Shown here: piece by piece, positions 19,901 through 35,521 of the stretch | Numbering within the stretch: position 1 is the stretch's first letter | Layout: each line of letters opens with the position of its first letter | NCBI RefSeq assembly: GCF_000711985.1 | Contig: NZ_JONU01000007.1 | Location: forward strand, 496,001-560,000 | Length of the DNA stretch: 64,000 nt | Source of the DNA: Rheinheimera texasensis DSM 17496 | GTDB taxonomy: Bacteria; Pseudomonadota; Gammaproteobacteria; Enterobacterales; Alteromonadaceae | Direction of reading: 5' to 3' | Notes under the pieces: model-generated | The model's database searches: none | What the model was told of the DNA's origin: nothing | Seen by the model: only the letters and a program-made list of their open reading frames with translations | Program-made: the position numbers and the translations under genes

Positions 19901-19978
19901 CAGGCACTGAAAACAGGCAGTTTGGATCAGGTCGCTATCTCTCAGTTGCAAAATCACCTGTCTGATGCAGGAACCTAG
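16913..19978 (+). CDS. Membrane hybrid histidine kinase with sensor, REC and Hpt domains
   Basis: 1021 residues. I chose the ATG at 16913 because GGAG lies 8 bases upstream; an in-frame GTG at 16907 is too close to that site. The N-terminus has about five membrane segments (15-150), another at about 165-180, then a periplasmic Cache/PAS-like sensor (about 190-420, with ALITDARGEVLHFYK and NVSDRPYFFQ) and a membrane segment near 435. The cytoplasmic part has HisKA with H564 (ANMSHEIRTP), HATPase (NLLSNAIKF, IDQGIGM, GGTGLGLYIS), REC with D850 (LILMDQQMP) and Hpt with H974 (LLHQIKGTSA). It is a complete intramolecular phosphorelay without its own output. Last gene of its operon; a terminator follows. 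Confidence 0.92.
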   Translation: MVWLSKALTLKRLKYWLLLVLLGTLANITVVDLPFVVPFSVGNIALFLILLRLGLFWSIPAAGLILLPLYQNLAFAASLLQLAVLLCFNQAIRRHSIAAVLTYAVASTLLFGQLAPAKISAEPLYLLLHSGLSTAVFAFCLRSMLLLDTLTHSNHSEQQPLTLQLSHRVAMYSSIPSTLLIALVLHGAIALDLSRASLRYQAEQHQLAQQISLRLLSYQTQLNLAAEMLELAAPSQVLQMLTVQRPEFISALITDARGEVLHFYKADLPQTARSGTNVSDRPYFFQPKKTGQAFISDTFLGRNLGQDQLFAVSIPLQDPQKGFRGVLEVSIDLKALTATMTTTDVDISHRVLLDRERKKIWGTADTRPLGEVWSVSTQSDPAARKFLRNSWFNSAGPITLTQNAAHLLQLHAVNPGQWQLKYFIDTDAFIQRYHVFLAIAMLIALLLLEAITALSRSFVSRYTVALEQLAENASGWQPDDMPQPRLSFEQSAKEIETLANTLSEMQHRVRGSRRAMQHSMQQIVMLNNELEQRVQLRTEELSKERDRAQQLASVKTRFLANMSHEIRTPITVIKGFTEQLMHKVTAAELPLVHRIQQNTEHLQRLVDDILDTAKIDEGKMNLELQAVALSSFIEDLISSISALVAQKQLRLISRFSLNQEVSITADPFRLKQILLNLLSNAIKFTAKGDITLDVKQNIRGDIEVAVIDQGIGMKPEQLTQLFSAFTQADSSTSRNFGGTGLGLYISRQLAEAMQIQIDVASEPGIGSTFTLIIPASLIQNTAQITQQQPQTHQPIKLVPAKVLIVDDVADIRALIASYLEQQPLSLHFAADGMAAIEICRQHKFDLILMDQQMPELDGFNAARQLRDMGLSCPIILLSADVFEDPGKQLDKVFDLTMTKPFSKQQLLEAIAAQQVKYATDSSQSIALADVSITSAGTDNDDLLVEYRESLPAYVEKIDKLITQQELDKLQRLLHQIKGTSACFGLTEISESAHRALQALKTGSLDQVAISQLQNHLSDAGT

Positions 19979-20011: not shown

Positions 20012-21070
20012 CTACGGCCGGATCTTTGACAGTTTCACACTAATTTCCTGCAACGACAGGACATGATTGACGGCACCTAACTTAATCGCTTCTTTAGGCA
20101 TGCCAAAGACCACTGAACTCGCTTCGTCCTGCGCATAAGTCACAGCTCCCTGTTCCTGCATTTCCAGTAAACCACGGGCGCCGTCATCGCCCATCCCTGT
20201 GAGGATAAAACCGCTTGCTGCAGAGCCGATTTCACGCGCGACCGAACTGAACAACACATTGACTGACGGCTTATGCCGCGAGACTGGTGGTCCATCTCTG
20301 ACGACGGTATAGAGCTCATGCCCCCGCTTTTCGACCTGCAAATGCAAACCTCCCGGCGCGATATAAGCATGACCCGACCGCATCAGTTGATTGTCTTCCG
20401 CTTCGACCACAGTCATCGCCGAAATATGATCCATTCGCTCAGCAAAGGCCTTGGTAAAAGCAGCAGGCATGTGCTGCACTATAGCAATCGGAGGCAATGT
20501 CGCAGGAACTTTACTCAGGATAAACTCGAGGGCTTGTGTCCCTCCTGTTGACGTGCCAATCACTAATAATCTGGCTTGGTCATGCTGATCGTGATTTGTA
20601 GCTCTTGCCAGCAGTTGTTGCTGTGCAGCATGGTTCAGCGCGCCGCTCTGTTGTTGCTTCACTATTTTGGCTTTCGCTGCTGATTTGACAGCCTGAATAA
20701 TGTCGCGCCCAACCCGGAGGAGGTCTTCTTTAGACGACATCATCGGCTTTGCAAATATCTCTACGGCGCCTGCCGCCAGCGCCTCGACCGAACTACGTGC
20801 CCCTGACATGGTCAGCGACGAACAAATAATGACCGGTAATGGGCGACTACGCATCAACGAGCGCAGAAATGTCAGACCATCCATTCCGGGCATTTCAATA
20901 TCAAGGACCAAAACATCTGGCCATTGTTGTTCCATGGCACGCATTGCAAATATCGGATTACTGTGCGCGCCGATCAGGGATAACTCGGGATCTGCTGACA
21001 GTAACTGCCCCAGTGTTTGTCGGATCACGGCAGAATCATCAACCAGCATTACTTTAATTTTAGTTGTCAT
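20012..21070 (-). CDS. cheB: Chemotaxis protein-glutamate methylesterase CheB
   Basis: 352 residues. The receiver (about 5-125) has D11-D12 and phosphoacceptor D57 (LVLDIEMPGMDG). The methylesterase domain (about 165-350) has catalytic S174 (GTSTGGTQ), H200 (VQHMP) and D296 (GMGDDGARG), the same triad order as Escherichia coli CheB. It removes methyl groups from, and deamidates, chemoreceptor glutamates when phosphorylated by CheA. It is the last gene of the minus-strand chemosensory operon that begins at cheW (29152) and overlaps cheD by 11 bases. Confidence 0.96.
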   Translation of the reverse strand: MTTKIKVMLVDDSAVIRQTLGQLLSADPELSLIGAHSNPIFAMRAMEQQWPDVLVLDIEMPGMDGLTFLRSLMRSRPLPVIICSSLTMSGARSSVEALAAGAVEIFAKPMMSSKEDLLRVGRDIIQAVKSAAKAKIVKQQQSGALNHAAQQQLLARATNHDQHDQARLLVIGTSTGGTQALEFILSKVPATLPPIAIVQHMPAAFTKAFAERMDHISAMTVVEAEDNQLMRSGHAYIAPGGLHLQVEKRGHELYTVVRDGPPVSRHKPSVNVLFSSVAREIGSAASGFILTGMGDDGARGLLEMQEQGAVTYAQDEASSVVFGMPKEAIKLGAVNHVLSLQEISVKLSKIRP

Positions 21071-21599
21071 ATCGACCTGCCTTTGCAGAAATCACCTGAG
21101 AGAACGCACCATGATGCAGTGAGTTTTTATTCAGTTGACATTGACCATTTTCGAGGTCAACGCTCAGATACCGGTAACAATTTCCACCAATATCCTGGTG
21201 CAATATATCAACCTGATGTTTGTTGAGCACATCCATCACTTTGTGCAAATTTTGCTCGCCGATCTTCAGTGATTGAGCAATCGGCCTCTGCTGCTCCAAT
21301 GGCGTACCAAACATATCGCCGCCCCCATATAACCGCAGCTCACACTGTTGTAATGTCGCACCGTAGCGTTCTAAGTCTCTGCAAAACAGGTTGATTGATT
21401 CGTCTACAAAACGACCACTCAACATGCCCTGCTTTGCCCGCAGCCGGGAAGGTAGCATGGCATGGGACACCCCCAGCCAATGCACAGACGGTAAAAAAAC
21501 TACAAGACTGATGCATGAACCAAGAATGGTAGTAAGCCGGCCAACCCGGCATTCTCCGGTCCACATGTCTCCCGGGTTCAAAAACACCTGATAAGTCAT
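21060..21599 (-). CDS. cheD: Chemoreceptor glutamine deamidase CheD
   Basis: 179 residues. The catalytic cysteine is C29 in TTILGSCISLVVF, and the catalytic histidine is H46 in LGVSHAMLP, as in the CheD cysteine-hydrolase family. A GGGDMFG segment (GGGAxMF in relatives) is also present. CheD deamidates receptor glutamines and in some bacteria also binds CheC; a cheC gene exists in this same block at 34439. It overlaps cheR by 4 bases (ATGA) and cheB by 11 bases. Confidence 0.94.
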   Translation of the reverse strand: MTYQVFLNPGDMWTGECRVGRLTTILGSCISLVVFLPSVHWLGVSHAMLPSRLRAKQGMLSGRFVDESINLFCRDLERYGATLQQCELRLYGGGDMFGTPLEQQRPIAQSLKIGEQNLHKVMDVLNKHQVDILHQDIGGNCYRYLSVDLENGQCQLNKNSLHHGAFSQVISAKAGRYDN

Positions 21600-22405
21600 G
21601 CCTGGGCTAACCGATAAACCGCAGGCCGTACCGATACCAGCGCATCAGTGATGCCATTCAGGCTCTCAGAGTGCCCGACAAACAGGAACCCGTCAGGCTG
21701 TAACACCTCTAACAGGTGATTAATGATGGTTTTTTTGCCGGCGGCATCAAAGTAAATCAGTACGTTACGTAAAAAAATCAGGTCATATTTTTTCTTGCGG
21801 CGCACAGGTTCCATCAGGTTGTGCGCGTGCAGGCTCAAGCGCTGGCGTAAGCAGTCATCAACTAACAGATATCCATCAAATTGCCCTAGCCCTTTGAGAC
21901 AATACTTACGTAATAAAGACGAAGGCACTTCTCTTGCCCGGGATAGTGGATACAACCCTTGTGCTGCCGTCGCTAACATTCTGTTAGATAGATCACTGGC
22001 ATCAACCTGCCAGAGTTTGTCGCCAAAATACTCGGCCATTAACATGGCAATGCTGTAGGGTTCTTCGCCAGAGGAGCACGCGGCGCTCCAGATCTGCGGA
22101 ATATGACCGGGCCAGCCCTGGTCCAATAGTTCCTGCAAGAAATCAAAATGACGTTGTTCACGGAAAAAATAGGTTTCGTTGGTTGTCAGCAGATCCACAG
22201 CAAGCTGACGTTCCAAATGGTTTCCCTGTGTCGTAATAAAACGCAGATAGGCACCAAAGTTTTCTAACTGCAGAACTTTAAGCCGGGGAGCCAGTCTTCC
22301 GCATACTAAACTGCGTTTATTCATGCCGAGCCGGATGCCCGACTCAGCATAAAAAAACTGACTGATGGCGGCAAAGTCGCTTTCACTAATCGCCTGAACA
22401 TTCAT
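21596..22405 (-). CDS. cheR: Chemotaxis protein methyltransferase CheR
   Basis: 269 residues. The N-terminal alpha domain is followed by the SAM-binding motif IWSAACSSGEEPYSIAML and by NVLIYFDAAGKKTI and FVGHSESL, which are hallmarks of CheR. It methylates receptor glutamates using S-adenosylmethionine. The soluble receptor encoded just upstream is the likely substrate; neither receptor in the operon shows a C-terminal NWETF-type CheR tether. It overlaps cheD by 4 bases and follows the receptor gene by 14 bases. Confidence 0.96.
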   Translation of the reverse strand: MNVQAISESDFAAISQFFYAESGIRLGMNKRSLVCGRLAPRLKVLQLENFGAYLRFITTQGNHLERQLAVDLLTTNETYFFREQRHFDFLQELLDQGWPGHIPQIWSAACSSGEEPYSIAMLMAEYFGDKLWQVDASDLSNRMLATAAQGLYPLSRAREVPSSLLRKYCLKGLGQFDGYLLVDDCLRQRLSLHAHNLMEPVRRKKKYDLIFLRNVLIYFDAAGKKTIINHLLEVLQPDGFLFVGHSESLNGITDALVSVRPAVYRLAQA

Positions 22406-22419
22406 CTGCCACCCCCGGT

Positions 22420-24591
22420 TTAAAACCGGCCGAAACTATTCGGATCAACAGCCGCGGAACCTCGGGTGAGCCGGGTAACGTTTGATGCCGAAGGCGACTT
22501 ACTCAGAGTTGGACGGGAAAACTGAATGAGTGATTGTCCCTCGCTATTGTCCAGCTGAAAGAAGCTCACCAGTTGCATCAGCATTTCCGCCTGACCAGAC
22601 ATTTCCTCAGCGGTCGCAGCCAGTTCCTCAGACGCAGAAGCATTTTGCTGTGTCGCCTGGGTCACCTGGGACATTGATTCATTGATCTGGCCAACTCCGG
22701 CAGATTGTTCATCAGAGGCTGCAGCAATTTCCTGCACTAATTCTGACGTTTTGCCAATCGCAGGCACTATTTCTTTGAGTAAATCTCCTGCCCGTTCGGC
22801 TTTTTGCACCGAACCGCTGGCCAGCTCTGATATTTCCTGCGCAGCAACCTGCGAGCGCTCCGCCAGTTTACGAACTTCGGCGGCGACAACGGCGAAGCCT
22901 TTGCCATGCTCGCCGGCTCTCGCAGCTTCGATCGCCGCGTTTAAAGCCAACAAATTCGTTTGATAGGCAATATCATCAACAATGCCAATTTTTGAAGCGA
23001 TTTGTTTCATGGCCAGCACTGTGTCGACGACAGCACGCCCACCCTCGGCGGCTTCACCGGCCGCTTTTGACGCCATGCCGTCAGTGATTTTTGCGTTATC
23101 CGCATTTTGTGAAATCGAAGCGGTCATTTGCTCAACTGCTGCCGATGTTTCCTCAACAGAGGCTGCTTGCTCACTTGCTCCCTGTGCCAGAGATTGAGCG
23201 GTCGACGATACCTCAGTGGATGCCTGTGCCAGTGCTTCTGAGTTTGATCTGACATCGGCAATGATCCGTCTTAGGCTCTCAATAGTGCCGTTGACGCTGT
23301 CTTTGAGTCCGGCATAGACGCCCTGATAATCGCCTTCGACTAATACGGTCAGCTTACCTTGCTGTAAACCATTCATCACAGTTGCGGTTTCCTGAATGGG
23401 TTTTTCGGTAAAGGCCAGCACTTCGTTAAAGCTATCGATCATTTCGCGGAAGGTATCTGCAAAGCCAGTTGCATCGACCCGATACTGCAGATTGCCCTCT
23501 TTAGCACTTTGACCTACGGCGCCGAGTAACTCAGCGAGCCTTAACAGATTTGCTTTCGTTGCATCAGCCGCAACAGTGATGGCTGCTTTTTCGTTCGGCA
23601 ATCTTGCCATATCGCTTTTGAAATCACCGATGCCATACGAAGTGGTCACTTTGACATAGTCTTTCATCATATCGACATGGGACTGCACCAGCCGGTTGAT
23701 TTGGCCACACACCGAGCTGAACGCACCTGCAAAATCACGCTCATTTAATTGGAAACTGCTAAACCCTTCATCATGTTTCAGCGTCATTTCAGCGATCGCT
23801 GCGGCAAGTTGATTTAATACATCGGTTAAGTTCTGAGAGCACCCTGCAAGATCACCCAGCAGACCCTCTGCTTTTAATTGCGGGCGAACCGACAAGTCGC
23901 CGACGCTGACTCCGCGGATCACAGCAAGGTTATCACGCAACACTAAATCGAGTTGTGTCAGCAGCTGATTAGAAAGCAATGCAATATCACGGGCAATGCC
24001 ATCGAGCGCCTCTGCATTAACAAGTTGCGAAAAATCCCCTTTCGCCGCAGATGTAAATGAATGGCCAAATTGTGCAGCGAGCAGCTTCTCCCTTTGTATT
24101 TCTGCGGTGAGATCCTGCCATTCAATAGCTGTACCTATGTGTTGTCCGTGCATCATCAGGCTGTTTTGACTCAGACGGAAAATTCTGTCGCCAAGCTTTA
24201 GCGTTACCACGGACATCCCACGGGTTGCAGGATTAAAAAACATCTCGATCGATTCGCCAATCAGCCGTTGCAGCGAAAATGATGGGATCTGGCTCCGGAT
24301 CTCAGGCTCAGCCTGCTGCAGCAAACGTTGCAGCGCCGGATTGAGATAAGTCACGCTTCCTTGTTCATCCGCCAGCATCACACTGGTATTCAGGAATTCA
24401 AGAGCGGCCGACGGCACTGCCCGGCGTTGGACTTCCAACAGCAACAAATCCACCTCTGCAGCCAATGGCTGGCAGTCTCCCTGAAATTCCTCAACCTGCA
24501 GCGCTTCATAGTGCTGACTTTGACGCTGCTTTTGCAGAACCCGGGTTAGCTGGCTGGTTTGCTTGTCGGAAAATAGACGTAAAATACCCAT
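22420..24591 (-). CDS. Soluble chemoreceptor with PAS and poly-HAMP array
   Basis: 723 residues with no membrane segment or signal peptide, so it should form cytoplasmic arrays. A PAS-like domain lies at about 60-170 ([22 protein letters not shown]). Between about 180 and 470 are repeated HAMP-like units, marked by [38 protein letters not shown] and [14 protein letters not shown]. The signalling hairpin tip ([22 protein letters not shown]) and the flanking methylation helices follow. The C-terminus ends NSFGRF and lacks a CheR-docking pentapeptide. It sits between cheA and cheR, so it is the principal receptor of this accessory system. The ligand is unknown. Confidence 0.92.
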
Positions 24592-24600
24592 AATGTCACC

Positions 24601-26703
24601 TCAGATGGTAGTCGTTGTACGCTGACGCTCTGTTGCCTGTACATGGATTTGCACCAGGCGAGGAATGTCGAGTATCAATGCGATATCACCGGAACCCAGA
24701 ATGCTGGATCCGCTAATGCCCTGTAAAAACTGGAATAATTTGCCCAATGGTTTGATAACGGTTTGGAATTCACCCAATAACTGGTCGACAACTAAACCTG
24801 CGCTTTGTTTTCCATAGCGCACAACCACAATGCTGCGGCGGTCACTGGCTGCAGCACCGAGCCCAAACATTTGATTCAAAAAGATAAATGGCAAGACTTC
24901 GCCGCGCAGATTCAGGTAACCGGCGTCTGTATCAAGTGCCATATCTGCCGGCAACTCGATACATTCATTCACCATGTCCAAAGGGATCACAAAACGAGAC
25001 TGACCAACTCGCACCATAAAACCGTCGATAATGGCTAATGTCAGTGGCAAGCGCAGCTGAAACTGGGTACCGGCGCCTGGCTCTGAACTGATATCCACTG
25101 TGCCACGCAAAGCTTCGATATTGCGACGCACCACATCCATGCCGACGCCCCGGCCTGACAGATTACTCACCGTATCAGCCGTGGAAAAACCGGGTTCGAA
25201 GATCAATTCGTCGATTTGCCGCAGAGTCAGCTCAGCACCGGCACTGATCAGTCCCTGGCTTATCGCTTTCTGCCGGACTTTATCGCGGTTGATACCGCGA
25301 CCATCATCGCGGATTTCTATAACGATACTGCCGCAATCATGGTACGCCCGCAGCAACAAGCTACCATGTGCACTCTTTCCTGCCGCGATTCGTTCGGATG
25401 CGCTTTCAAGCCCGTGATCCATTGCATTTCTCACCAGATGCATCAGCGGATCACTGATACGTTCAACCATCGACTTATCGAGTTCAGCATCCGCGCCTTC
25501 GATCACCAGATGAACATCTTTCCCCAGTTCAGCAGCGATATCATGGACCACTCGCTGGAACCGATTAAATGTTTCACCGATTTGCACCATCCGCAGTTGC
25601 AGGGCACTGCCCTGAATATCATCCACCAGCTGCTGAACCTGCTGCACCCGCTCAGTTAAATCACTGTTGTTAAATTGCCGGCTGTGCTCGTGCAAGGTCG
25701 CAGTCGCAATAAGCAACTCACCCAATTGATTCACCAGCGTGTCCAGCTTATAAGCGGGCAAGCGCATCATGCGTTGATCTATCTGACGCGGCTGGTTTTT
25801 ATTCTCTGCTTTTGTCTCGCTGCGTGGCAGCAAAGAAGGCGTTGTGCCGGCAGATACTTCAACCGGAACTTTCAGCAAACCCAACGCCTGCCATCGTTGT
25901 TTTAACTCTTGCGCCAACGCTGGACTCTCAAGGCTATCAAGAAAAAGTTGCTGGGCTTCAACCGGACTATCGTGGTTAAAAATGGCGCAAAGGCTATCCT
26001 GGCGGATAAATTCAAGCGCTTCCAACAGCGTGGCCTCTGCAATATCTTCCATCAGCAGATCAAGCATCAGCTGACAGGTTTCCGCTTGTGCTGGTGCAAT
26101 CTGTGTCAATGGCTGTACCTGTCCGGCATACCAATATTCCCGGCACACAGCAGCATGCTGACGCAAATACCGCACCAGGATGACGGGGTCCAGACCGTCG
26201 GTAAAGCAACTGGCGGAGAGCTTCAGAAAAACGTGACAGCTTGATTTTTGTTTTGCTGATCCGACACTGGGAGATGCAATGTCGTTTTCAGACGACTGCG
26301 CAGATTGCTGCAACAGAGGCCTGAGCTGATTGAGTAGTGCATCACCGGCCTGAAGCAGATTAGCCGCTGGCTCAGCGGACACTTCGGCGCAATGCAGCAG
26401 ACTCGCGATATGATCATTACAACGCAGCAGCAATTGCGAAAGGGAACGATCAACCACCAGCTTATTACTACGTAGTTGTTCAAACGCAGTTTCAACCAGA
26501 TGGGTAAAGTGCACAACATGATCCAACCCAACAACGCCAGCCGACCCTTTAATTGTGTGCGCGGCCCTGAACATCGCATTAATATCTTCGGCGGTCACTT
26601 CACCCGGCGACTTCTCCAATGCCAGCACGCCACGTTCCAATTGTTCAACGAGCTCGCGGGCTTCTGTCAGAAATACTGCAACGAGTTCACTCATGTTCAG
26701 CAT
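24601..26703 (-). CDS. cheA: Chemotaxis histidine kinase CheA
   Basis: 700 residues from the ATG at 26703, which has GGGAGG 8 bases upstream; a second ATG at 26694 is possible. Domains in order: Hpt with H49 (AAHTIKGSAG), a P2-like region (about 160-255), the dimerisation helices from about 310, the ATPase domain (HLVRNAMDHGLE, IRDDGRGINRDK, GRGVGMDVVRRNIEALRG) and a C-terminal CheW-like regulatory domain. It phosphorylates the two CheY proteins and CheB of this block under receptor control. It overlaps the STAS gene by 17 bases. Confidence 0.96.
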   Translation of the reverse strand: MLNMSELVAVFLTEARELVEQLERGVLALEKSPGEVTAEDINAMFRAAHTIKGSAGVVGLDHVVHFTHLVETAFEQLRSNKLVVDRSLSQLLLRCNDHIASLLHCAEVSAEPAANLLQAGDALLNQLRPLLQQSAQSSENDIASPSVGSAKQKSSCHVFLKLSASCFTDGLDPVILVRYLRQHAAVCREYWYAGQVQPLTQIAPAQAETCQLMLDLLMEDIAEATLLEALEFIRQDSLCAIFNHDSPVEAQQLFLDSLESPALAQELKQRWQALGLLKVPVEVSAGTTPSLLPRSETKAENKNQPRQIDQRMMRLPAYKLDTLVNQLGELLIATATLHEHSRQFNNSDLTERVQQVQQLVDDIQGSALQLRMVQIGETFNRFQRVVHDIAAELGKDVHLVIEGADAELDKSMVERISDPLMHLVRNAMDHGLESASERIAAGKSAHGSLLLRAYHDCGSIVIEIRDDGRGINRDKVRQKAISQGLISAGAELTLRQIDELIFEPGFSTADTVSNLSGRGVGMDVVRRNIEALRGTVDISSEPGAGTQFQLRLPLTLAIIDGFMVRVGQSRFVIPLDMVNECIELPADMALDTDAGYLNLRGEVLPFIFLNQMFGLGAAASDRRSIVVVRYGKQSAGLVVDQLLGEFQTVIKPLGKLFQFLQGISGSSILGSGDIALILDIPRLVQIHVQATERQRTTTTI

Positions 26704-26989
26704 ACTGCAGACCTCCCACACGATAGCCCTGTTCTATCAGCTGATCAGCTAACCATGCAGCGATAAGATGACTTTCAGGACCCGCCTGAATCGCTAAACT
26801 GGGTATTGGTAAAGATTTGAGCAGACTCAGCAGCAACTGAAACCCTGCACCGTCCAATTCCTGTAGCTCAGATAAATCCAGATTCAGCTGTTCGGGCTGA
26901 TGCTGAGCGATAACCTGCCAACGACCGGCATAATCCTGAACTTCGTAGATGGTCAGGGAAGGCGGAAATTTTAGCGTCTCTGCAGACAT
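26687..26989 (-). CDS. STAS-domain protein without the usual phospho-serine
   Basis: 100 residues, a single STAS domain (anti-sigma-factor-antagonist fold). The core LDLSELQELDGAGFQLLLSLL aligns with the DxSG segment of SpoIIAA-like proteins, but the phosphorylated serine position reads G or A. It therefore probably acts by protein contact rather than by a Ser kinase switch. STAS genes occur inside some accessory chemotaxis operons, here between cheY and cheA. Its partner is not evident; no anti-sigma kinase is encoded nearby. Confidence 0.82.
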   Translation of the reverse strand: MSAETLKFPPSLTIYEVQDYAGRWQVIAQHQPEQLNLDLSELQELDGAGFQLLLSLLKSLPIPSLAIQAGPESHLIAAWLADQLIEQGYRVGGLQYAEHE

Positions 26990-26998
26990 AAGACCTCC

Positions 26999-27364
26999 TC
27001 AGGCCAGTAATCTGGACACCGTCATTAACAGTTGCTCGGCTTTAAACGGCTTCACCATCCATGCTTTTGCGCCATGGGCTTTACCTTGCGCCATAAAATT
27101 GTCGCCCGACTCACTGGTCAACATCACAAATGGGGTGAAACGGTAAGCGGGCTCGCCTTTGACGCGCTGTAACAGCGTTAAACCATCCATATTCGGCATG
27201 TTCAAATCGCTGATAATCAGGTGGACTTTTTTACCATTCAGTTGTTTTAAAGCCTCTACACCGTCACAGGCATCCAGCACTTCGTACCCCTCTCCGACGA
27301 GGGTCATTCGGGCAACCTGGCGGATCGAAGCAGAATCATCAACGACTAGAATTGTTTTAGACAT
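26999..27364 (-). CDS. cheY: Single-domain response regulator CheY
   Basis: 121 residues from the ATG at 27364 (MSKTILVVDD), with GAGGA upstream. It is a bare receiver: D9-D10, phosphoacceptor D53 (LIISDLNMPNMDG), T at VMLTSES and Lys at MVKPF. It would carry phosphate from CheA to an unknown target. The next gene downstream is the STAS protein and the gene before it encodes the receptor-like protein with a CheZ-like tail, which might dephosphorylate it. Confidence 0.93.
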   Translation of the reverse strand: MSKTILVVDDSASIRQVARMTLVGEGYEVLDACDGVEALKQLNGKKVHLIISDLNMPNMDGLTLLQRVKGEPAYRFTPFVMLTSESGDNFMAQGKAHGAKAWMVKPFKAEQLLMTVSRLLA

Positions 27365-27374
27365 GATACAGTCC

Positions 27375-28583
27375 TCAGAAAAAAGTAATGTCCTGCGGGC
27401 TGTGCTGCAATGACTCTGCAGGCCTCGCCGCCTTGTGTAATTCACGCTCATCCTGCATCGTGTATGACTGGTATAAATTCACCGCAATTTGTTCGACATC
27501 GCTAAGTGTTATCGCCGTGCCAGAAAGATGTAATTGCTGCAATTGCTGCAGAACCGTCACGATATGGCTAAGTCGCTGACTGACACGATCCTGAAACTGG
27601 AAATCAGTGATAGCATCCTGCAGCTTGTCTTGAACCTGACTTTGCGTTTTTTCAAGCTGGCCGATAGTGCCGCACAGTTCATTGGTCATGTCCGTCAAGC
27701 CGCTCATAACCGAGCCGATGTGCTGATTTGCGTCAGCCATCAGCTGCTCGTCCAATTCGCCGCTGCTTTGCAGTTGGCCCGAACTGCCGGCGATGGCCTG
27801 CATTAACGTCTGCATACGGCTAATAATGTCGCTGGCAGCTTGTGATGTGGTATCAGATAACTCGCGGACACGCTCAGCTACAACAGAAAAGCCACGCCCC
27901 GCTTCGCCAGCACGGGCGGCTTCGATCGATGCATTCAGAGACAGCAAAGTAATTTCTTTGGAAATGCGCTGGATAATTTCAGTCTGATGTTTGAGCGCGC
28001 TGGCGGCCTGAGCCACCTGTTGATTAGATTCCAGTAGTAGCGTTTTCCTCGCGAGCGCTTGTTGCAGCATTTGCAGCACCTGCGCCAGCGACACTTCAGT
28101 TTTGGCAGCAAAACTATCGCTGTCAGGTTCAAAGCGTTTGGCCGCGCTTTGCGCCAGCTGCATGCTTTCTCTTACGGAAATAAACAACAAGTTAAAATCT
28201 TCGACCAGACGATTTACCGATTGATCGCCCAATTGCTTACCGTGACCGAGTTGCGCAACCAGGGTGTCAAACAGCAAATTCTGCGCAGCGACCGTCTCTG
28301 CGCCTGATGTCAATGCGCTGACCGGAGCATCTTCGACAGTATCCCCGGCATAGACCTGAAGTTGTGGGCCGCGGCAACAGGAAAATGCTGCTTTTTGCAG
28401 GCGAAGAGTAAAAAGCAACACTGCCGCAGTAAATAGCATGGTCCAATGCACCAGGCTTGCTGCGGTGCTGAGTAAAAATAGGATGAGCACCATATGTTGT
28501 GCCCGTGGCCCACTGATAGGTGCCACCTCAGCCGGATAACCAGGCTGTGTGGTCCACAACTGACCACGGGCGAGGCCTAACAT
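27375..28583 (-). CDS. Membrane receptor-like protein with MCP signalling tip and CheZ-like C-terminus
   Basis: 402 residues. Two closely spaced hydrophobic segments at about 31-62 form a membrane hairpin with almost no periplasmic part. A chemoreceptor signalling tip ([19 protein letters not shown]) lies near 200-225. The C-terminal part contains [11 protein letters not shown] at about 328-338. D332 and Q336 have the DxxxQ spacing of the CheZ active site (FQDLTGQVI in Escherichia coli), and the protein ends QDITFF, resembling the acidic-hydrophobic CheY-binding tail of CheZ. It may thus combine array binding with CheY-P dephosphorylation. The start shares one base with the cheW stop (TAATG). 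Confidence 0.82.
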
Positions 28584-29152
28584 TATGCGACCTGCTCTGA
28601 TGCTGATTTTTCCTGACTCAACGCAACTAACCCGGCCATTTCATCGACGGAAAGTACCCGCTCCAATGCCAGAATCATCACCAGCCGATCCTGAATGCGT
28701 GCCATTTGACGGATAAAGTCAGTCCGGATGCGGCTACCGAAGTTAGGTGCCGCCGCTAAGTCTTTGGCAGAAAGTTCCAGGACTTCATTGACAGCATCCA
28801 CAACGACACCCAATTCAATTTTGCCGTCTTCGGTGTCGAGCTCAACAATCACTACGCAAGTACGTCGGCCGGCGGTCAGTTGCTCGCCATAGAGCCGGGC
28901 GGCTAAATCAATCACCGGAACCACAGCTCCACGTAGATTAATGACCCCCCTGACAAACAAGGGCAGCATCGGTATTTTGGTAATATTGCCAAATTCAATA
29001 ATTTCTTTAATTGCCAGAATGCCGAGCGCATAACACTCGCCGCCGGAATTAAAAGTGAGGTACTGACCGACGTTGCCAAGCACGCCTGAGTGGTCGGATT
29101 CTGCGCGATTAGAACTACTGCTACTCATTTGCATCATTAGCACCTGTCTCAT
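28583..29152 (-). CDS. cheW: Chemotaxis coupling protein CheW
   Basis: 189 residues. The CheW fold runs from [17 protein letters not shown] through [39 protein letters not shown] and [10 protein letters not shown]. The RGVINLRG loop is the receptor- and CheA-binding signature. It is the first gene of the ten-gene minus-strand operon. The ATG at 29152 has GAGGA just before it; further in-frame ATGs at 29137 and 29134 are alternatives, since the transcript start seems to lie only a few bases upstream. It joins CheA to the receptors. Confidence 0.95.
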
Positions 29153-29312: not shown

Positions 29313-29918
29313 ATGAGTAATGACGGCTGGTCGGACAAATCCGAGAAATACTGTAGTACCACGGAAGCGGCGCGTTTACTGGGCGTTTCTGTGGGAACAG
29401 TGCAACAAATGGTTGAATCCGGGAAGCTTATCGCCTGGAAAACTAACGGTGGGCACCGGCGTATTTTATTGCGGTCTATACAGCAGCAACGTGAACCCGT
29501 ATCAACAGCCGTGCTGCCAATCAAATCAGATCCCGATGGCCGCCTGCAGGTAGTTATCGTCGAAGATGATGATTTCATGCGAACTTTGTATAAACGTGAA
29601 CTGGAAAATATGGCACTGCCATTGACTCTGGAGCTTTTCGATAATGGTTTAGAAGCCATGCTGAGACTCGGAGCCGGCTTTCCACATCTACTGATCCTCG
29701 ATCTCGAACTCCCCTACATAGATGGTTTTGAAATGCTCAAACATATCAAAACACACAAGGAAAATGACTTCAGGCATATTATTGTGGTCAGTGGGCTTGA
29801 CGACAGTACACTCAAGCAGCATGAAACCGTTTTAGGTGATGTCACTGTGCTGAAAAAACCGCTGGACAGCGCAGTGCTTAAGGGATATTTGTTAGCTTTA
29901 AAGCATATTTATCTGTAA
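29313..29918 (+). CDS. HTH-REC protein: excisionase-like DNA-binding domain fused to C-terminal receiver
   Basis: 201 residues, ATG preceded by GGAGG. Residues about 12-60 form an excisionase/MerR-type HTH (STTEAARLLGVSVGTVQQMVESG then TNGGHRRILLRSI). After a linker, the receiver (about 78-198) has D85-D87, phosphoacceptor D130 (LLILDLELPYIDG) and a KKP switch near 171-173. The layout matches the protein at 12313, though the sequences have diverged. It is divergent from the cheW operon and convergent with a kinase operon. The HTH resembles phage excisionases, but there is no phage gene here, so a transcription role under CheA or hybrid-kinase control is more plausible. Confidence 0.86.
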   Translation: MSNDGWSDKSEKYCSTTEAARLLGVSVGTVQQMVESGKLIAWKTNGGHRRILLRSIQQQREPVSTAVLPIKSDPDGRLQVVIVEDDDFMRTLYKRELENMALPLTLELFDNGLEAMLRLGAGFPHLLILDLELPYIDGFEMLKHIKTHKENDFRHIIVVSGLDDSTLKQHETVLGDVTVLKKPLDSAVLKGYLLALKHIYL

Positions 29919-29930
29919 CCGGCTGCAAAG

Positions 29931-32900
29931 TCAGAGCTGTTGCAGGAGTTGTTCAACCAGGCGTGCAGCACTCAGGCAATGTTGCCAGCATTCCTGATAA
30001 TCATTGTCGCAGGCGTCACCATTCTGACGACGTGCAGCGAGTTCTAAAGCTTTGAGACTCTTTGCGAACTCAGTCAATCCGACAAAACTACTGGAAGATT
30101 TCAGTTTGTGTGCAATCGCTGATATTTGCGCCATATTTCCGCTAGACACTGCACGCACAAGCTCTGGCATATGTTGCCGATAGCTCCGGGTATAGTCTGC
30201 CAACACTTCATCAACCGCATCTGTTCCAACGGTTTTGGCCAGTGTGTCTCGGTCAAATCGAACATCTGCGGTTGTTTTTTGGTCGATAGCAGTGGTGGCT
30301 GACTCGAGACATCGCACGTATTGCTCCGGATGCAGCCACTGAGCCAGCGACTGTTCGAGCTTTACAATCGGTAGCGGTTTGGTCAGACAACCATTCATAC
30401 CGGCTTCATAACATCGCTGCTGTTCTTCCTGCATGACATTAGCAGTTAACGCCAGCACCGGGATCGGTGGCAAATTTAGCAAATTTTCAATGTCCCGCCA
30501 TGCCCGGCAAAACTCATAGCCGTCCAGTAATGGCATATGCAAGTCAGTCAGGATCAGGTCATAACGATTTTGCTGAGCAAATTGCAACCCCTGTACACCA
30601 TCCGCTGCAACATCGGATTGATATCCGAGCTGAAGCAGCATCTGCCTGATCACAATCTGATTCGTACTGTTATCTTCCAGCACTAAAATCCGTTGGCTAA
30701 AATCAGGCTTCGCAGAAACTGAATTCTGTACAGGCGCTGCTGCCGGTTCCCCTGCACTAAACAGCAGGTTGATCGCGTCAAAAAGAGCACCACAGGTTAA
30801 TACGTTGGCATCCAGATACACTTGTTTCTCAGCAACTAATCGTGGCTTTCGCCGTCTGCCACGGCCCATAACTACGACACCATGTTGCGGGTATCTAGCA
30901 CGGATCCGGGAAGCAAGATCAATCCAGCCGTCTGGCAGCTCTGAGCCGGAACAGTCAATCAACCAGGCACACGCCTCACTTGTTGCAGGAGCAATGAGGT
31001 CTGGTTGCTGAGTCAGCTGCACGCTGCATCCGGCAGCTTGCAGATAAATGCCCCATTCCGTTGCCTGCTCAGAACTCTGACTGCTGACAATGACGACCTC
31101 TGTCGCCATGATAGCTTTGGTAGGTGGCAACTGACTCTGTAACACTTGCAGCGGTAACATCACTTTGAATTCACTGCCCAGATCAGGCTGACTGTTAACT
31201 TCAATTAGCCCGCCCATCAGATGGACGAGTTGTTGGCTGATTGAGAGCCCAAGCCCGGTACCACCAAATCGACGACTTGTGGAGTCATCTGCCTGCACAA
31301 ACGGCTTGAATAACCGCTGCAAACTGGTTTCGGACATACCAATGCCGTTATCTTTCACCGAAAAACACAGTAAAACATCGTGTTCATCCCAATCCAAAAC
31401 GGTGAGGGCTACATGAACCTTCCCCTGACGCCCGGTGCCGGCGCTGAATTTTATGGCGTTGCTCAGCAGGTTCAGCAGAACCTGACGAAGCCGTCCACCA
31501 TCGGCCATCACCCGCAGAGGTACAGCTGGATCAACAAAAAAGCTAAGATAAATCTGTTGCTTAAGCGCGAGCTCATCCAAAACACTCATAATCTGATGAA
31601 GTAGTTCAGATAGATCGCAAGGCTCATGGATTACGGCCAGCTTACCGGCGTCAAGCTTTGAAAAATCGAGAATATCATCAATCACTGTCAGTAAGGCGGT
31701 AGCGGATTCCCGCATCACTTTAATATTTGCCTGTTGCTGGGGCTCGGTCAGTCCCGCGCTGAGCACATCTAACATACCCAATACACCATTCATGGGTGTG
31801 CGGATCTCGTGACTCATATTTGCGAGAAAACTACTTTTGAAGCGTGACGCCTGTTCCGCTTGTTCTTTTGCCAACCGCATTTCTTCTTCAACAGCTATCT
31901 CTGCAGTGATGTCAGACAAATGGCCATGCCAGAGTACATCGCCACTGGCGAGTTGTTCAGGCTGTGCTTTGCCCTGGTACCAGAGATATTCCCCGTCTGC
32001 TGACCACAGCCGAAATCTGGCCTGTAACACTTGCAGAGACTTTGATGACTGATCCAGGCGTTGGCCTAGCACCTCCAGATCATCCGGGTGGACTTTTTGC
32101 AAAAAGGGGCTGGCGTCTTTGCGTAATTCGTCGAGAGATAGACCGAATAATTGTTCGGCTTGCGGGCTCAGATAGGGAAAACTCCGGTTGCCATTGACTT
32201 TGCGTAAGTACTGAAACACGACACCGGGCACACATGAAGTTAAAGTTTCCAGCTGCAGCTGAGCCTGCATCCGGTCGGTCACATCAAAATAAAGACCCAG
32301 TAGTTTTTGTCTGCCACCAGGAAAACAGCGGATCTGACCGCGACTATGGATCCAAACCCAATATCCGGCCCGGTGACGCAGCCGTCCGACGCAGTCATAA
32401 ATTGCTGCCTGCCCCCGCAGGTATTGGCTGAATGCGCTGCGGCAACGATGAACATCATCAGGATGCATTTGCTGAAACAGCCATTGCTGAGTCAGCTGTC
32501 CGGTTTCTGCCGGTGAAAGTCCCAACAGCTTATAGCCCGCAGCATCAACTTCGAGGTGATCAGTCAGAGTATCCAGTTGCCACGGGATTGCCGTCGCTGC
32601 GGCTATTGCTCGCTCCGCAGACTGCGTGTGCTGCTCGTCTTGCACCATAGCATGGTGCTGAGTTAAAAAATGACTCAACAGCCTGCACCAGGGCTCAACT
32701 AACGTCATAACCTGTTGTTGCTGCGAAGCATCAGCTTTGACCAGCAACCATCGCTGATTGCTATCCGGGACTAAGGGCAGCAGTATCGCCGGGGGTTCCA
32801 ACGATAGACTCACAGAACCCGACGCTGTATGTATTTGCTGACAGTCCAGGATCTTTGGCGCCAGGCTATCATCCCCCGCAAGTCGGTAAAGCAGCATGCT

Positions 32901-33119
32901 GGCCGCTGAAATTTCGACCGCAGACGCCGTTGAGGCAATGGCTTTCTCCGTTTCATACACAGCCACAGCTTCAATACCAAGCACAGAGGTCAGTTGATCC
33001 AATTGCGCCTGAAGCAAGGTAGTATCAATTTGTTTCTGCGTAAAACACTGTGATAGGTCCGCCATCAGCCGGCTTATCGTCATGACTATAAGCTGCGGTG
33101 AATGTGTCGGACAGGTCAT
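29931..33119 (-). CDS. Cytoplasmic hybrid histidine kinase (PAS-PAS-HisKA-HATPase-REC-Hpt)
   Basis: 1062 residues, no clear membrane segment. A GAF-like N-terminus (about 1-150) precedes two PAS domains (about 165-285 and 290-410; VDAAGYKLLGLSPAETG and SFPYLSPQAEQLFGLSLDEL). HisKA follows with H437 (LANMSHEIRTP), HATPase (NLLSNAIKFSAG, VKDNGIGM, GGTGLGLSIS), a second degenerate receiver-like stretch, REC with D859 (LILTDLHMPLLDGY) and Hpt with H1004 (AIAHKLKSSS). The start overlaps the upstream kinase stop by 4 bases (ATGA). It is the last gene of the cheY-cheC-kinase-hybrid operon and could relay phosphate to the HTH-REC or other receivers. Confidence 0.92.
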   Translation of the reverse strand: MTCPTHSPQLIVMTISRLMADLSQCFTQKQIDTTLLQAQLDQLTSVLGIEAVAVYETEKAIASTASAVEISAASMLLYRLAGDDSLAPKILDCQQIHTASGSVSLSLEPPAILLPLVPDSNQRWLLVKADASQQQQVMTLVEPWCRLLSHFLTQHHAMVQDEQHTQSAERAIAAATAIPWQLDTLTDHLEVDAAGYKLLGLSPAETGQLTQQWLFQQMHPDDVHRCRSAFSQYLRGQAAIYDCVGRLRHRAGYWVWIHSRGQIRCFPGGRQKLLGLYFDVTDRMQAQLQLETLTSCVPGVVFQYLRKVNGNRSFPYLSPQAEQLFGLSLDELRKDASPFLQKVHPDDLEVLGQRLDQSSKSLQVLQARFRLWSADGEYLWYQGKAQPEQLASGDVLWHGHLSDITAEIAVEEEMRLAKEQAEQASRFKSSFLANMSHEIRTPMNGVLGMLDVLSAGLTEPQQQANIKVMRESATALLTVIDDILDFSKLDAGKLAVIHEPCDLSELLHQIMSVLDELALKQQIYLSFFVDPAVPLRVMADGGRLRQVLLNLLSNAIKFSAGTGRQGKVHVALTVLDWDEHDVLLCFSVKDNGIGMSETSLQRLFKPFVQADDSTSRRFGGTGLGLSISQQLVHLMGGLIEVNSQPDLGSEFKVMLPLQVLQSQLPPTKAIMATEVVIVSSQSSEQATEWGIYLQAAGCSVQLTQQPDLIAPATSEACAWLIDCSGSELPDGWIDLASRIRARYPQHGVVVMGRGRRRKPRLVAEKQVYLDANVLTCGALFDAINLLFSAGEPAAAPVQNSVSAKPDFSQRILVLEDNSTNQIVIRQMLLQLGYQSDVAADGVQGLQFAQQNRYDLILTDLHMPLLDGYEFCRAWRDIENLLNLPPIPVLALTANVMQEEQQRCYEAGMNGCLTKPLPIVKLEQSLAQWLHPEQYVRCLESATTAIDQKTTADVRFDRDTLAKTVGTDAVDEVLADYTRSYRQHMPELVRAVSSGNMAQISAIAHKLKSSSSFVGLTEFAKSLKALELAARRQNGDACDNDYQECWQHCLSAARLVEQLLQQL

Positions 33120-34435
33120 GATATTAGCTGCTCCGAGCCTGGTAAATCAGCTGTTTTTTCCGGACCTGTAATAGGTAATATCACAACAAAACTAGCACCT
33201 TCACCTGGTGTCGAATGAATCTGAATTTCGCCATGATGTTTTTTCACAATACTATATGACAAAGACAAACCCAGCCCGGTACCGCTACCAACAGGTTTTG
33301 TCGTAAAAAAGGGTTCAAACAGGCGTTTCATATGTTCAGACGAAATGCCCGGTCCGGTGTCACGCACTTCGATGCATACATCCTTATTTTGCTGCCAGGC
33401 TCGCAGATAAAGATGACCTTTATGTTCCATCGCTTGTGCGGCATTGACTAATAGATTCAAAAATACCTGATTTATCTGATTCGGCTGACAGTAGACCTGG
33501 GGCAGGTCTTCGGCGTAATCCCGATGAATTTCCACTTTATACTTCAGTTGATTCGCCGCAATTTTTAAGGTGTTTTCGAGGCCATCGACCAGATCTGCCG
33601 GTTGCCACTGCGCATTATCAACATGCGAGAATGCTTTCAGATTTTTTACAATCTCCGATACGCGGTCAATCCCATCAATGGACTCTTTAAGAAGATCAGG
33701 CAAATCCTGTCGGACAAAACCAAACTGTAAACGTTGCTGCATGTCGCGCTGCATGGCCAGATAAGCATCATTGCCGGTTTTACTGACCACTTTTTCATAG
33801 AATTCTGTCAGCTTCAGCAAACGGGTGGCATAGTCCTGTAAGGTTTGCAGGTTTGAACTGATAAATCCTATCGGGTTATTAATTTCATGGGCAACCCCTG
33901 CGGCCAGTTGACCGATAGCGGCCATTTTTTCTGATTGCAATAACTGACTTTGCGCCATCGACAGTTTTTCATTCAGCGCTTTAAGTTCAGCGCCTTCCTG
34001 TTCTAGTTTTGCTGACAGGAGCTGCTCCGCCTGAAAATAACTAGCAAGTTCAGTAACATCCTGTACCACCAGACACACGTTGTGGACAGAACTATCCTCT
34101 GACTCAATCGGCAGAAACTCAATATTTTGATACATCAGCGTTTCTTCACCGGTGATTGGCCGGCTGGAAGAAAACGGAAACACGTGTGGTTGATGCTCCC
34201 AATAAGAAAAACTGGCGTTATTGAGCACCAGCACACTGTCGATTTTCTTTTTCAGATATCGCGATTGCGCGGGAAACATCTCGAGTAGATTTTGGCCCTG
34301 AATTGCAGCAAGACTTTGCCCTGTACGATCACTGAAGAAATCATTCCAATACAACACCTGATACTCAGCATTTAACACACAGATCCCCAGAGGCAGCCGG
34401 TTATTTAACTGAAAATGCAGGCGTGGCAGGTCCAT
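33116..34435 (-). CDS. PAS-containing cytoplasmic histidine kinase
   Basis: 439 residues. A PAS domain (about 10-130) contains LPLGICVLNAEYQVLYWNDFF and ends in VVQDVTELASYF. A coiled coil leads to the H-box AAGVAHEINNPIGF with H183. ATPase motifs are NLLVNAAQAMEH, VRDTGPGI and GTGLGLSLSYSIVKKHHG. This is the same HPK4-like class as the kinase at 15561. It lies 3 bases after cheC and overlaps the hybrid kinase by 4 bases. The co-encoded CheY is a likely partner. Confidence 0.9.
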   Translation of the reverse strand: MDLPRLHFQLNNRLPLGICVLNAEYQVLYWNDFFSDRTGQSLAAIQGQNLLEMFPAQSRYLKKKIDSVLVLNNASFSYWEHQPHVFPFSSSRPITGEETLMYQNIEFLPIESEDSSVHNVCLVVQDVTELASYFQAEQLLSAKLEQEGAELKALNEKLSMAQSQLLQSEKMAAIGQLAAGVAHEINNPIGFISSNLQTLQDYATRLLKLTEFYEKVVSKTGNDAYLAMQRDMQQRLQFGFVRQDLPDLLKESIDGIDRVSEIVKNLKAFSHVDNAQWQPADLVDGLENTLKIAANQLKYKVEIHRDYAEDLPQVYCQPNQINQVFLNLLVNAAQAMEHKGHLYLRAWQQNKDVCIEVRDTGPGISSEHMKRLFEPFFTTKPVGSGTGLGLSLSYSIVKKHHGEIQIHSTPGEGASFVVILPITGPEKTADLPGSEQLIS

Positions 34436-34438
34436 GAT

Positions 34439-35017
34439 TTAATCCTCCAGCAACTCATTGAGTTTCCCAATCAGGACTTCGACGGAACCGCCCTCAAGGC
34501 AAATCACAATGCGGGAATCAAAGGCAGTTCCCTCCAGCTGGAACTCCACTTCCAGCAGCAAGGTACTGGACCAGCGAAAACTTTCGGCCTGGCGCGTATC
34601 AGGCTGAAAAATTGTAGGCATACTGAGTTTTGCATGCAGTGCCAACTGACTGGAAAATCCATTCAGACAGGCTCCGGCTAAAATATTGGCCAGTTCAAGC
34701 AATAGCTCCTTTCTGCTCCGGTCATCCAATGGCAAGACATAATCCATCAGCTCGCCGATAGCCTCAGTGCCGGCCCGGGCCAGCAAAGTCAGCACTTCAC
34801 CTTTCACACTGCCGAGAAAGGATTGTCGGGTAAACCAATACTGGTCCGTGACAAACATCTGCTGAAATTCATAGGCTGAGACCATAACAATCTTTGGGAT
34901 CGACAAAGTTATTTTGGCTTCAATCAACCGAGCCAGCGCATTCGCGGCCTGCCCCATCGAAATGTTCATTAATTCCTGCAGCGCATCACGCTGCAACTCA
35001 CTCAGCAAAGTGCTCAT
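34439..35017 (-). CDS. cheC: CheC-type CheY-P phosphatase
   Basis: 192 residues. Two ExxN active-site motifs are present, as in CheC: E15-L-M-N18 (LQELMNISMGQAANAL) and E108-L-A-N111 (LLLELANILAGAC), each on the long helix of a pseudo-symmetric fold. CheC removes phosphate from CheY and in Bacillus works with CheD, which is encoded in the neighbouring operon. It overlaps cheY by 4 bases (ATGA), so it probably acts on that partner. CheX is an alternative name, but CheX has a single active motif, so CheC fits better. Confidence 0.87.
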   Translation of the reverse strand: MSTLLSELQRDALQELMNISMGQAANALARLIEAKITLSIPKIVMVSAYEFQQMFVTDQYWFTRQSFLGSVKGEVLTLLARAGTEAIGELMDYVLPLDDRSRKELLLELANILAGACLNGFSSQLALHAKLSMPTIFQPDTRQAESFRWSSTLLLEVEFQLEGTAFDSRIVICLEGGSVEVLIGKLNELLED

Positions 35018-35379
35018 AACAACCCCAAATCCGCCAATGTTTGGCGTAACTGGTTGGGTTGCAATGGTTTGTGAAGAAATCGGAAGGCGCCCAGTGACTC
35101 GACTATTTTGCGGGCTTCAGGTTGAATGTCTGCGCTGATCACAATGACAACGGTTTTGGCGTGGTGATCGTGCAGCTCCCTGAGGACTCCAAACCCATCG
35201 AGTTCTGGCATTGTCAGATCAAGGAACAGTACATCTGCTTTGCCAGCGGCTACCGCGGCCAGAGCTTCTTTACCGTTGCAGGCTTCGGTAAGCTCAATAT
35301 CCCACTCCGGCGGTAACGCTTTTCGGACAGTCTTACGCGATAACATGGAGTCATCAGCGATAGTTACGGGTATAGCCAT
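35014..35379 (-). CDS. Single-domain response regulator, second CheY
   Basis: 121 residues from the ATG at 35379, with GAGGTGTGTG before it; a longer reading to 35484 lacks a ribosome site and would cross the promoter. The receiver has D9-D10, phosphoacceptor D54 (VLFLDLTMPELDG), an Ser at VVIVISAD and Lys at FLHKPL. It starts the operon cheY-cheC-kinase-hybrid kinase. Its promoter shares a 16-base element with that of cheW, which links it to the CheA system, but the co-encoded kinases could phosphorylate it too. Confidence 0.92.
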   Translation of the reverse strand: MAIPVTIADDSMLSRKTVRKALPPEWDIELTEACNGKEALAAVAAGKADVLFLDLTMPELDGFGVLRELHDHHAKTVVIVISADIQPEARKIVESLGAFRFLHKPLQPNQLRQTLADLGLL

Positions 35380-35397
35380 CACACACCTCGAAACAAA

Positions 35398-35413
35398 TGT
35401 CTCATTTGTCCTC
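35398..35413 (-). promoter_or_regulatory. Shared 16-base element upstream of the second cheY
   Basis: GAGGACAAATGAGACA on the minus strand directly follows the -10 hexamer and is identical to the sequence at the cheW start. It contains the ATG of an 8-codon reading frame (35405-35379) whose stop overlaps the cheY ATG as TGATG. Confidence 0.55.
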
Positions 35414-35442
35414 AGTATTGACAGCAAATTGGTACCTGTCAA
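35414..35442 (-). promoter_or_regulatory. Candidate sigma-70 promoter of the second cheY operon
   Basis: On the minus strand a perfect TTGACA (35442-35437) and AATACT (35419-35414) are spaced by 17 bases. The predicted start near 35407 leaves about 28 bases before cheY. Confidence 0.65.
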
Positions 35443-35521
35443 TGTAATAGCAACAGAAAGCGGCACCCTGCCAACATGCATCAATTAAAGTGATTGAATT
35501 ACAAGTTGAATATTCATCACA

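Follow-up and report, generated by a model that had tools for sequence, protein, structure and literature searches.

A receptor-like chemotaxis protein with a CheZ-like active-site motif and a conserved C-terminal tail in Rheinheimera texasensis

Gene cluster and anatomy of the receptor

The DNA analyzed here, referred to as the window, is a 64,000-nucleotide stretch of the Rheinheimera texasensis DSM 17496 genome. It contains a chemotaxis cluster on the minus strand, which is opened by cheW (28583..29152) and continues with a gene for a receptor-like protein of 402 amino acids (27375..28583), cheY (26999..27364), a gene for a STAS-domain protein (26687..26989), cheA (24601..26721), a second receptor gene (22420..24591), cheR (21596..22405), cheD (21060..21599) and cheB (20012..21070). 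CheW, the CheA kinase, CheR, CheD and CheB were assigned with Pfam and the CheY response regulator with PF00072; the STAS protein matched STAS_2 at E 3.3e-5, which is under the curated cut-off. The start of the 402-aa receptor gene overlaps the stop of cheW (TAATG), and cheY follows 10 nt downstream. The listed 150-aa ORF of CheY starts too far upstream, and we took the ATG at 27364 as its most likely start. The companion receptor contains HAMP domains and a weak PAS match, ends in SFGRF, a pentapeptide of the CheR-tether type, and is without FxDxxxQ. On the plus strand (29313-29918), running divergently to cheW, lies the gene of a response regulator of unusual make-up, in which a HTH_17/MerR-type DNA-binding domain is fused to a receiver.

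ORF reading of the 402-aa protein revealed a probable membrane-anchored N-terminus, an MCP hairpin and a C-terminal CheZ-like module. The hydrophobic segment at residues ~32-62 (28398..28490, minus strand, as are all following features of this gene) is the probable membrane anchor, according to hydropathy, Pfam and a helix predicted by AlphaFold. MCPsignal (PF00015) covers residues 186-323 at E 3.4e-20 and was the sole Pfam match above the cut-offs; neither a ligand-binding domain nor a HAMP domain was found by Pfam, and NCBIfam returned distant receptor models only. The first-pass annotation of this DNA had placed a chemoreceptor signalling tip in the same chain, and the PF00015 match bears this out: the conserved tip lies at residues ~190-245 (27849..28016), as also indicated by alignment and by a predicted turn. 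The AlphaFold model (47 alignment rows; mean pLDDT 74, pTM 0.41) shows a helix at residues 26-70, a long hairpin whose two arms (88-225 and 230-353) are joined by a turn at 226-229, and two short helices at 360-373 and 377-384, beyond which no regular structure is predicted.

The descending helix of this hairpin (residues 230-353) carries FQDRVSQ (residues 330-336; 27576..27596), approximately 105 residues from the receptor tip, with D332 and Q336 in the DxxxQ spacing of CheZ. A conserved Y...H segment follows at residues 374-383 (Y374 to H383; 27435..27464); it was recognized by column conservation, and no CheZ counterpart of it was seen. The protein ends in QDITFF (residues 397-402; 27378..27395), a tail whose family form is [IVLM]x[FLM]F. 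Both FQDRVSQ and QDITFF, as reported at first pass, were confirmed in the translation.

Conservation of the motif and the tail

By composition, FQDxxxQ is expected approximately 0.008 times in the 402-aa protein. Among the window ORFs of at least 100 aa, F[QE]DxxxQ occurs twice, in the 402-aa receptor and as FEDPGKQ in a 1023-aa ORF (16907-19978). DxxxQ alone is uninformative, because 2.1 occurrences are expected in the 402-aa protein and three were found.

Searching genome contigs with the single 402-aa protein found no relatives. Outside the hairpin core (190-245), QFQDR.SQ, Y374, H383 and F402 are among the columns that do not vary across 12 full-length relatives. Because motif-based searching biases any estimate of conservation, a sample free of this selection was drawn with a profile restricted to the N-terminal half (A9), which was run against 369 genomes of the class. 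This profile detected 36 places in 32 genomes, 30 of which were fetched as loci, one being the paralogue in the window genome. FxDxxxQ and the [IVLM]x[FLM]F tail were both present in 30/30 loci: a script found 29 ORFs, every one with both, and L202, which has a variant tip, also carries both features. When the 29 homologues were aligned with the window protein (384 columns), Y374 and H383 took conservation ranks 1 and 2, followed by F402 at rank 3, F330 at 4, D332 at 10 and Q336 at 14, which places F330, D332, Q336 and F402 at the conservation level of the receptor tip.

Control receptors were taken from 80 module loci, the best 80 of 553, which had been fetched by the patterns QFQDR[VIT]SQ or [KSR]TYTT[LM]EQ[VA]. 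Since these patterns select for the motif, its presence in the 80 loci was not counted as conservation; the family ORFs were chosen there by the motif and a final F, and every locus held one. The same loci contain 92 other receptors, 88 of them complete. None of these 88 companion receptors has FxDxxxQ in its last 130 residues, and none has the [IVLM]x[FLM]F tail.

The tail was also counted over all fetched loci except L214-L233, a gene present in more than one locus being counted each time. It was present on 182 of 184 MCP-like ORFs with FxDxxxQ in the last 150 residues, with 148 distinct ends; the two exceptions are L014, which has a different end, and L156, which ends in TTFF. Among the other MCP ORFs it occurred once in 114, on a protein with VEDIISQ, and it was found on 1/49 CheD ORFs and on 10/4978 unlabelled ORFs, one of these a further CheD. 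Because the motif or the tail had served to retrieve many of these loci, these counts describe an association and give no rate. Likewise, the 15 unlabelled proteins with both motif and tail were chosen for having both and yield no rate.

Two CheD proteins end in a tail of the module type, namely DDDVELF (L267, 5912-6562, minus strand) and ERKIELF (L096, 197 aa), and the former shares its cluster with a McpA-like receptor. L163 and L164 encode receptor-like proteins with FQDITRQ, ends of IILF or IQLF, and departing receptor tips.

Profile and fold comparisons with CheZ

The C-terminal third had been likened to CheZ at first pass, with a profile comparison proposed as the check, and this comparison upheld the likeness around the motif. 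Using hhalign, the family C-terminus (A5, 61 rows) matched nine CheZ sequences at E 1.8e-4 (probability 48%, 67 columns), whereas 45 control receptor C-termini gave nothing (E 0.4). A sliding-window hhalign comparison was then made between 93 family members and 25 CheZ sequences, those that passed the ORF pattern among 51 CheZ loci (L001, L033-L062, L214-L233). The three windows that hold the motif matched CheZ at E 2.5e-4, 3.3e-5 and 2.6e-5, with a best probability of 75%, whereas seven family windows without the motif reached E 0.031 or worse and seven windows of control receptors E 0.013 or worse. Around the motif, 66-67 columns align in register with CheZ. With the motif kept and the flanks permuted, 0/100 permutations attained the real score (maximum 28.9 vs 35.7); with the motif masked, the same CheZ register was recovered at E 0.005, and the reversed family gave E 0.1. 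As the permuted flanks fall short and the masked motif keeps its register, the flanks contribute to the match. Register and flanks together place the DxxxQ of FQDRVSQ in a CheZ context.

On the whole window genome, profile A5, which contains no CheZ, picked out three places with E no higher than 0.001: the paralogue (7.9e-39), the 402-aa receptor (7.3e-26) and CheZ (7.5e-4). An earlier profile of the C-terminus only (A1) was run against a phylum-wide sample of 398 genomes and had matches in 146; part of these matches are CheZ itself, including the CheZ of G055 at E 3.3e-5. Among PDB sequences, A5 did not find E. coli CheZ (1kmi_Z) at E 10.

The CheZ alignment ends at position 202 of 246 in the CheZ profile, and no alignment was obtained between the module tail, QDITFF included, and the C-terminal helix of CheZ (DDLLxSLGF type). 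The claimed resemblance of QDITFF to the CheY-binding tail of CheZ thus stands in general character (acidic, hydrophobic, with a C-terminal F) and not as an alignment.

The Pfam CheZ model (PF04344) gave no match to the 402-aa receptor at E 1 or below, and its gathering cut-off (30.7 bits) was reached neither by the window protein nor by the 11 other members scanned. Five of 10 members gave a PF04344 match with E no higher than 1; all five matches span the motif and stay under the cut-off. The best module receptor scored 24.0 bits in hmmscan and 26.1 bits in the genome searches (G459). Ordinary receptors equal such scores: a 542-aa frame of G471 reached 26.4 bits over profile positions 5-114, and a 553-aa frame of G043, also an ordinary receptor, 21.2 bits, under the cut-off. 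Because ordinary receptors match below the cut-off too, we set the Pfam CheZ model aside as weak evidence. The window protein contains only the FQ part of the AXXFQ motif described for CheZ in PMC7750401.

Fold searches of the window model with Foldseek and VIA-align listed SMC and PI3K coiled coils, other generic long helices, and chemoreceptors; CheZ was outside the 50 matches listed by each search, which is evidence neither way. For L063, receptor and CheY were modelled with AlphaFold as one read-through chain (18 rows); this model had a pTM of 0.33 and says nothing on docking, and the fold search with it returned CheY-like receiver structures only.

Taken around the active site, the relationship between the module and CheZ is probably one of remote homology, with convergence as the alternative. 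The genome of L116 also encodes a 309-aa protein with FQDITRQ and no receptor tip (L233, 450-1379, minus strand), which passes the PF04344 cut-off at 36.2 bits and may connect CheZ with the module.

Linkage to cheY and stand-alone modules

Like cheZ, the 402-aa receptor gene lies beside cheY, and this arrangement recurs: in 78 of the 80 module loci, a cheY ORF starts between -400 and +200 nt from the stop of the module gene. Nearly all of the 67 family loci listed have the order module receptor, cheY, (STAS) and cheA, followed further along, contig permitting, by cheW, other receptors, cheR, cheD and cheB; no cheZ-like ORF was found in these 67 clusters. When the search started from the window CheY, the module gene was found beside cheY in 24 of 30 loci, a count that includes the window itself; these loci share genomes with the N-terminal-half sample. 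Among the six loci without it, four (L257, L261, L262 and L263) carry a CheY of another type ahead of an ORF read by eye as cheA; the other two, L235 and L259, show cheY, STAS and cheA (names by eye) with no module gene within the 1.5 kb examined.

The partner CheYs (n = 78) have N at D+2 in 77 (one unread), E at T+2 in 77, and KPF in all 78. N at D+2 and E at T+2 match the CheZ-sensitive CheY of E. coli, and both residues are common among CheYs. They would permit CheZ-type catalysis, and do not prove it. The title of PDB entry 1mih names a role of Glu89.

Similar receptors were observed in other clusters. In L173-L175, presumed to be Pseudomonas, the receptor ahead of cheY-cheA-cheW carries FQDMSSQ and GEVELF; a further receptor, which ends in WEEF, comes after it in L173 and L174. 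In L267, the receptor after cheB carries FADIIVQ and GEVELF. The positions of these receptors in L173-L175 and L267 fit that of McpA-like receptors.

The module also occurs outside receptors. In two genomes, the McpA-like position upstream of cheY-cheA-cheW is taken instead by a small protein with no receptor tip: L176 (182 aa, FQDMTSQ and GDVELF) at 139 nt and L179 (194 aa, FEDMTNQ and GDIELF) at 66 nt. A third, L182 (191 aa, FGDLVSQ and GEIELF), lies 70 nt upstream of cheY, with no cheA in 8 kb. Four more, all on the minus strand and all with FYD[RK]L[ST]Q and DDIELF, are encoded in L177 (4143-4748), L178 (4306-4980), L180 (4198-4767) and L181 (4559-5143); three of these four have no other che gene labelled nearby, and the L178 locus has one ORF with a weak receiver match. 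When aligned, the seven stand-alone proteins matched the family C-terminus at E 1.3e-14 and CheZ at E 0.07 only, and none had a Pfam or NCBIfam match over the cut-off. We regard L177, L178, L180 and L181 as candidate free-standing CheZ-like proteins. In another lineage of the phylum, module proteins of ~330 aa (L157-L160, L162, L167, L168, L171 and L172), with FEDI..Q, an [DE][IV][DE]LF end and no MCP tip by pattern, adjoin an ORF labelled cheB.

Other CheY phosphatases in the genome

According to the first-pass annotation, no cheZ gene is present. This holds for the window, as both genomic PF04344 matches are on other contigs, but not for the genome, which encodes a full CheZ (249.7 bits); the ORFs on either side of it were identified by eye as cheY and cheA. 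PF04344 matches over the cut-off were obtained in 48 of the 50 family genomes searched (50 of the 80 loci); in G480, the match over the cut-off is an atypical 309-aa protein. The window itself encodes a CheC-like protein (34439-35017, minus strand; PF04509, 44 bits) 6 kb from the module gene. CheX/CheC-type proteins were found in all four genomes checked, and the module genomes without a CheZ over the cut-off (G009, G457 and G469) each have CheC/CheX-type proteins. As cheZ, CheC-like and CheX/CheC-type genes are present, CheY-P may be handled independently of the module, which could be inessential. In the window, the CheC-like gene has as neighbours a regulator that consists of a receiver only (35014-35484) and, on the other side, a histidine kinase with PAS (33116-34435); the latter is followed by a hybrid kinase (29931-33119) that combines PAS, receiver and Hpt. 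The idea that the 402-aa receptor is the sole CheY phosphatase of the organism was rejected in view of the genomic CheZ and the CheC/CheX-type proteins.

Proposed function and alternative explanations

The presence of a CheZ-like active-site module in a receptor-like chain is well supported by conservation in a sample not selected for the motif, by a controlled profile match to CheZ, by adjacency to cheY and by free-standing copies. On this basis, we consider it likely that the 402-aa protein is a McpA/VC1394-like receptor with an embedded CheZ-type phosphatase for the neighbouring CheY. The anatomy of this hybrid is supported; that it dephosphorylates CheY-P, and does so inside the array, as proposed at first pass, we infer from sequence.

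In CheZ, D143 contacts Lys109 of CheY, Q147 orients the attacking water, and the C-terminal helix binds CheY. By analogy with D143 and Q147, D332 and Q336 of a receptor dimer would enter the active site of the neighbouring CheY-P, where D332 would position itself on the CheY lysine and Q336 would orient the attacking water, and the short free tail would capture CheY. D/Q catalysis together with tail capture would then allow the system to terminate its signal with no need of a cheZ gene. Membrane tethering and possible insertion into the array would put the sink beside the kinase, or couple it to the kinase. That the receptor state controls the phosphatase activity is speculation.

The main competing explanation, which we hold to be unlikely, is that the module binds CheY-P without hydrolyzing it and serves as a docking site or buffer that keeps CheY at the membrane. 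Conservation of the helix and the tail beside cheY would suit such a role, and the case for catalysis is drawn from sequence. However, a binding site needs no exact D and Q, yet both are kept in members in which the first or second letter of the motif differs, as in FADIIVQ, VEDIISQ, FYDRLSQ and FGDLVSQ, variants that were noticed rather than sampled.

It is quite improbable that the phosphatase acts instead on the flagellar (F6) CheY and so ties the cluster to swimming. McpA-like receptors associate with the F6 array, according to an earlier study cited in PMC7184735, and the genomic cheZ lies between ORFs read as cheY and cheA; however, the module gene sits with a CheY of its own, and the other CheY already has its CheZ.

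A tail that tethers CheR, CheB or CheD, with a merely structural DxxxQ, is more improbable again. C-terminal receptor tethers of similar length are known, and a CheD with a tail of the same kind (DDDVELF) is encoded in a McpA-type cluster. Against this, x[HFYW]xx[HFYW] was absent from the last 12 residues of the family members in both samples (0/80 and 0/30), the window protein included, whereas 80 of the 88 companion receptors have a CheR-type pentapeptide there, 47 of them at the extreme end. According to PMC7184735, moreover, the second-position valine of P. aeruginosa McpA keeps the receptor from binding the four CheR proteins of this species. Tails of the module type also end L176, L179 and L182, on which a methylation tether is implausible because they have no receptor hairpin tip.

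Least credible, and already disfavoured, is an ordinary receptor whose motif and tail reflect coincidence or packing: DxxxQ alone is common (three in this protein), helical proteins are often alike and ordinary receptors give sub-cut-off CheZ matches, but the conservation, control and permutation results speak against it.

If the phosphatase reading is right, one protein would switch the kinase on or off and also remove the kinase product, so that input and signal termination would be merged in one chain. It is an even question whether these proteins form a second, so far unrecognized CheZ-type phosphatase family, in receptors and free-standing across proteobacteria, that would act as the signal terminator of F7/F9-type systems, with their cheY and no cheZ, and whose activity, in the receptor-borne form, could be set by the receptor state. 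The hallmarks of such a family would be FxDxxxQ, the Y...H segment in many members, and an end of the DITFF or DVELF kind, a motif with which proteins that are now plain receptors, or familyless in Pfam and NCBIfam, could be annotated.

Relation to known systems

The module resembles CheZ (PF04344; PDB 1kmi) in having FQDxxxQ in a helical hairpin, which is predicted in the case of the module, in a gene that adjoins cheY, and in a linker followed by a free acidic-hydrophobic C-terminus that ends in F; the architecture and DxxxQ of CheZ are described in PMC7750401. The CheZ hairpins pair into a four-helix-bundle dimer. Unlike CheZ, it is fused to an MCP hairpin and a membrane anchor, has the extra conserved Y...H segment, ends in a tail of the ITFF or VELF kind rather than DDLLxSLGF, and stays under the Pfam cut-off. 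With CheC, CheX and FliY, of which a CheC-like representative is encoded in the window, the module would share the activity of a CheY-P phosphatase; their fold is unrelated to the CheZ type and their motif is ExxN. The remote CheZ of Helicobacter (HP0170) is divergent and recognized mainly by DxxxQ and its CheY-binding end; it is likened to the module here by general description only and, unlike the module, which sits in a receptor, it stands alone.

The receptor itself resembles the McpA/CttP-like and VC1394-like receptors of F7/F9 clusters, which have a TM region and an MCP domain (PMC7534058). It also resembles the McpA-like receptors as characterized in PMC7184735, where the gene lies beside an F7 cluster, a CheR pentapeptide is found in none of the McpA-like C-termini examined, and the conserved C-terminus is given a role called "important yet unclear". 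VC1394, from the F9 cluster of Vibrio cholerae, appears in PMC7534058 as a little-studied 24H receptor with a TM region and the McpA topology. The traits seen in the 402-aa receptor, namely a predicted TM region, no ligand domain, no CheR pentapeptide, a conserved C-terminus and a cheY-cheA cluster, fit the McpA/VC1394-like description, the comparison with VC1394 and McpA being by description only. As far as the available sections of PMC7534058 and PMC7184735 go, the C-terminus is given no function and no link to CheZ, and no proposal of a CheZ-like function for McpA/VC1394-like receptors was found in titles and abstract openings of open-access PMC papers.
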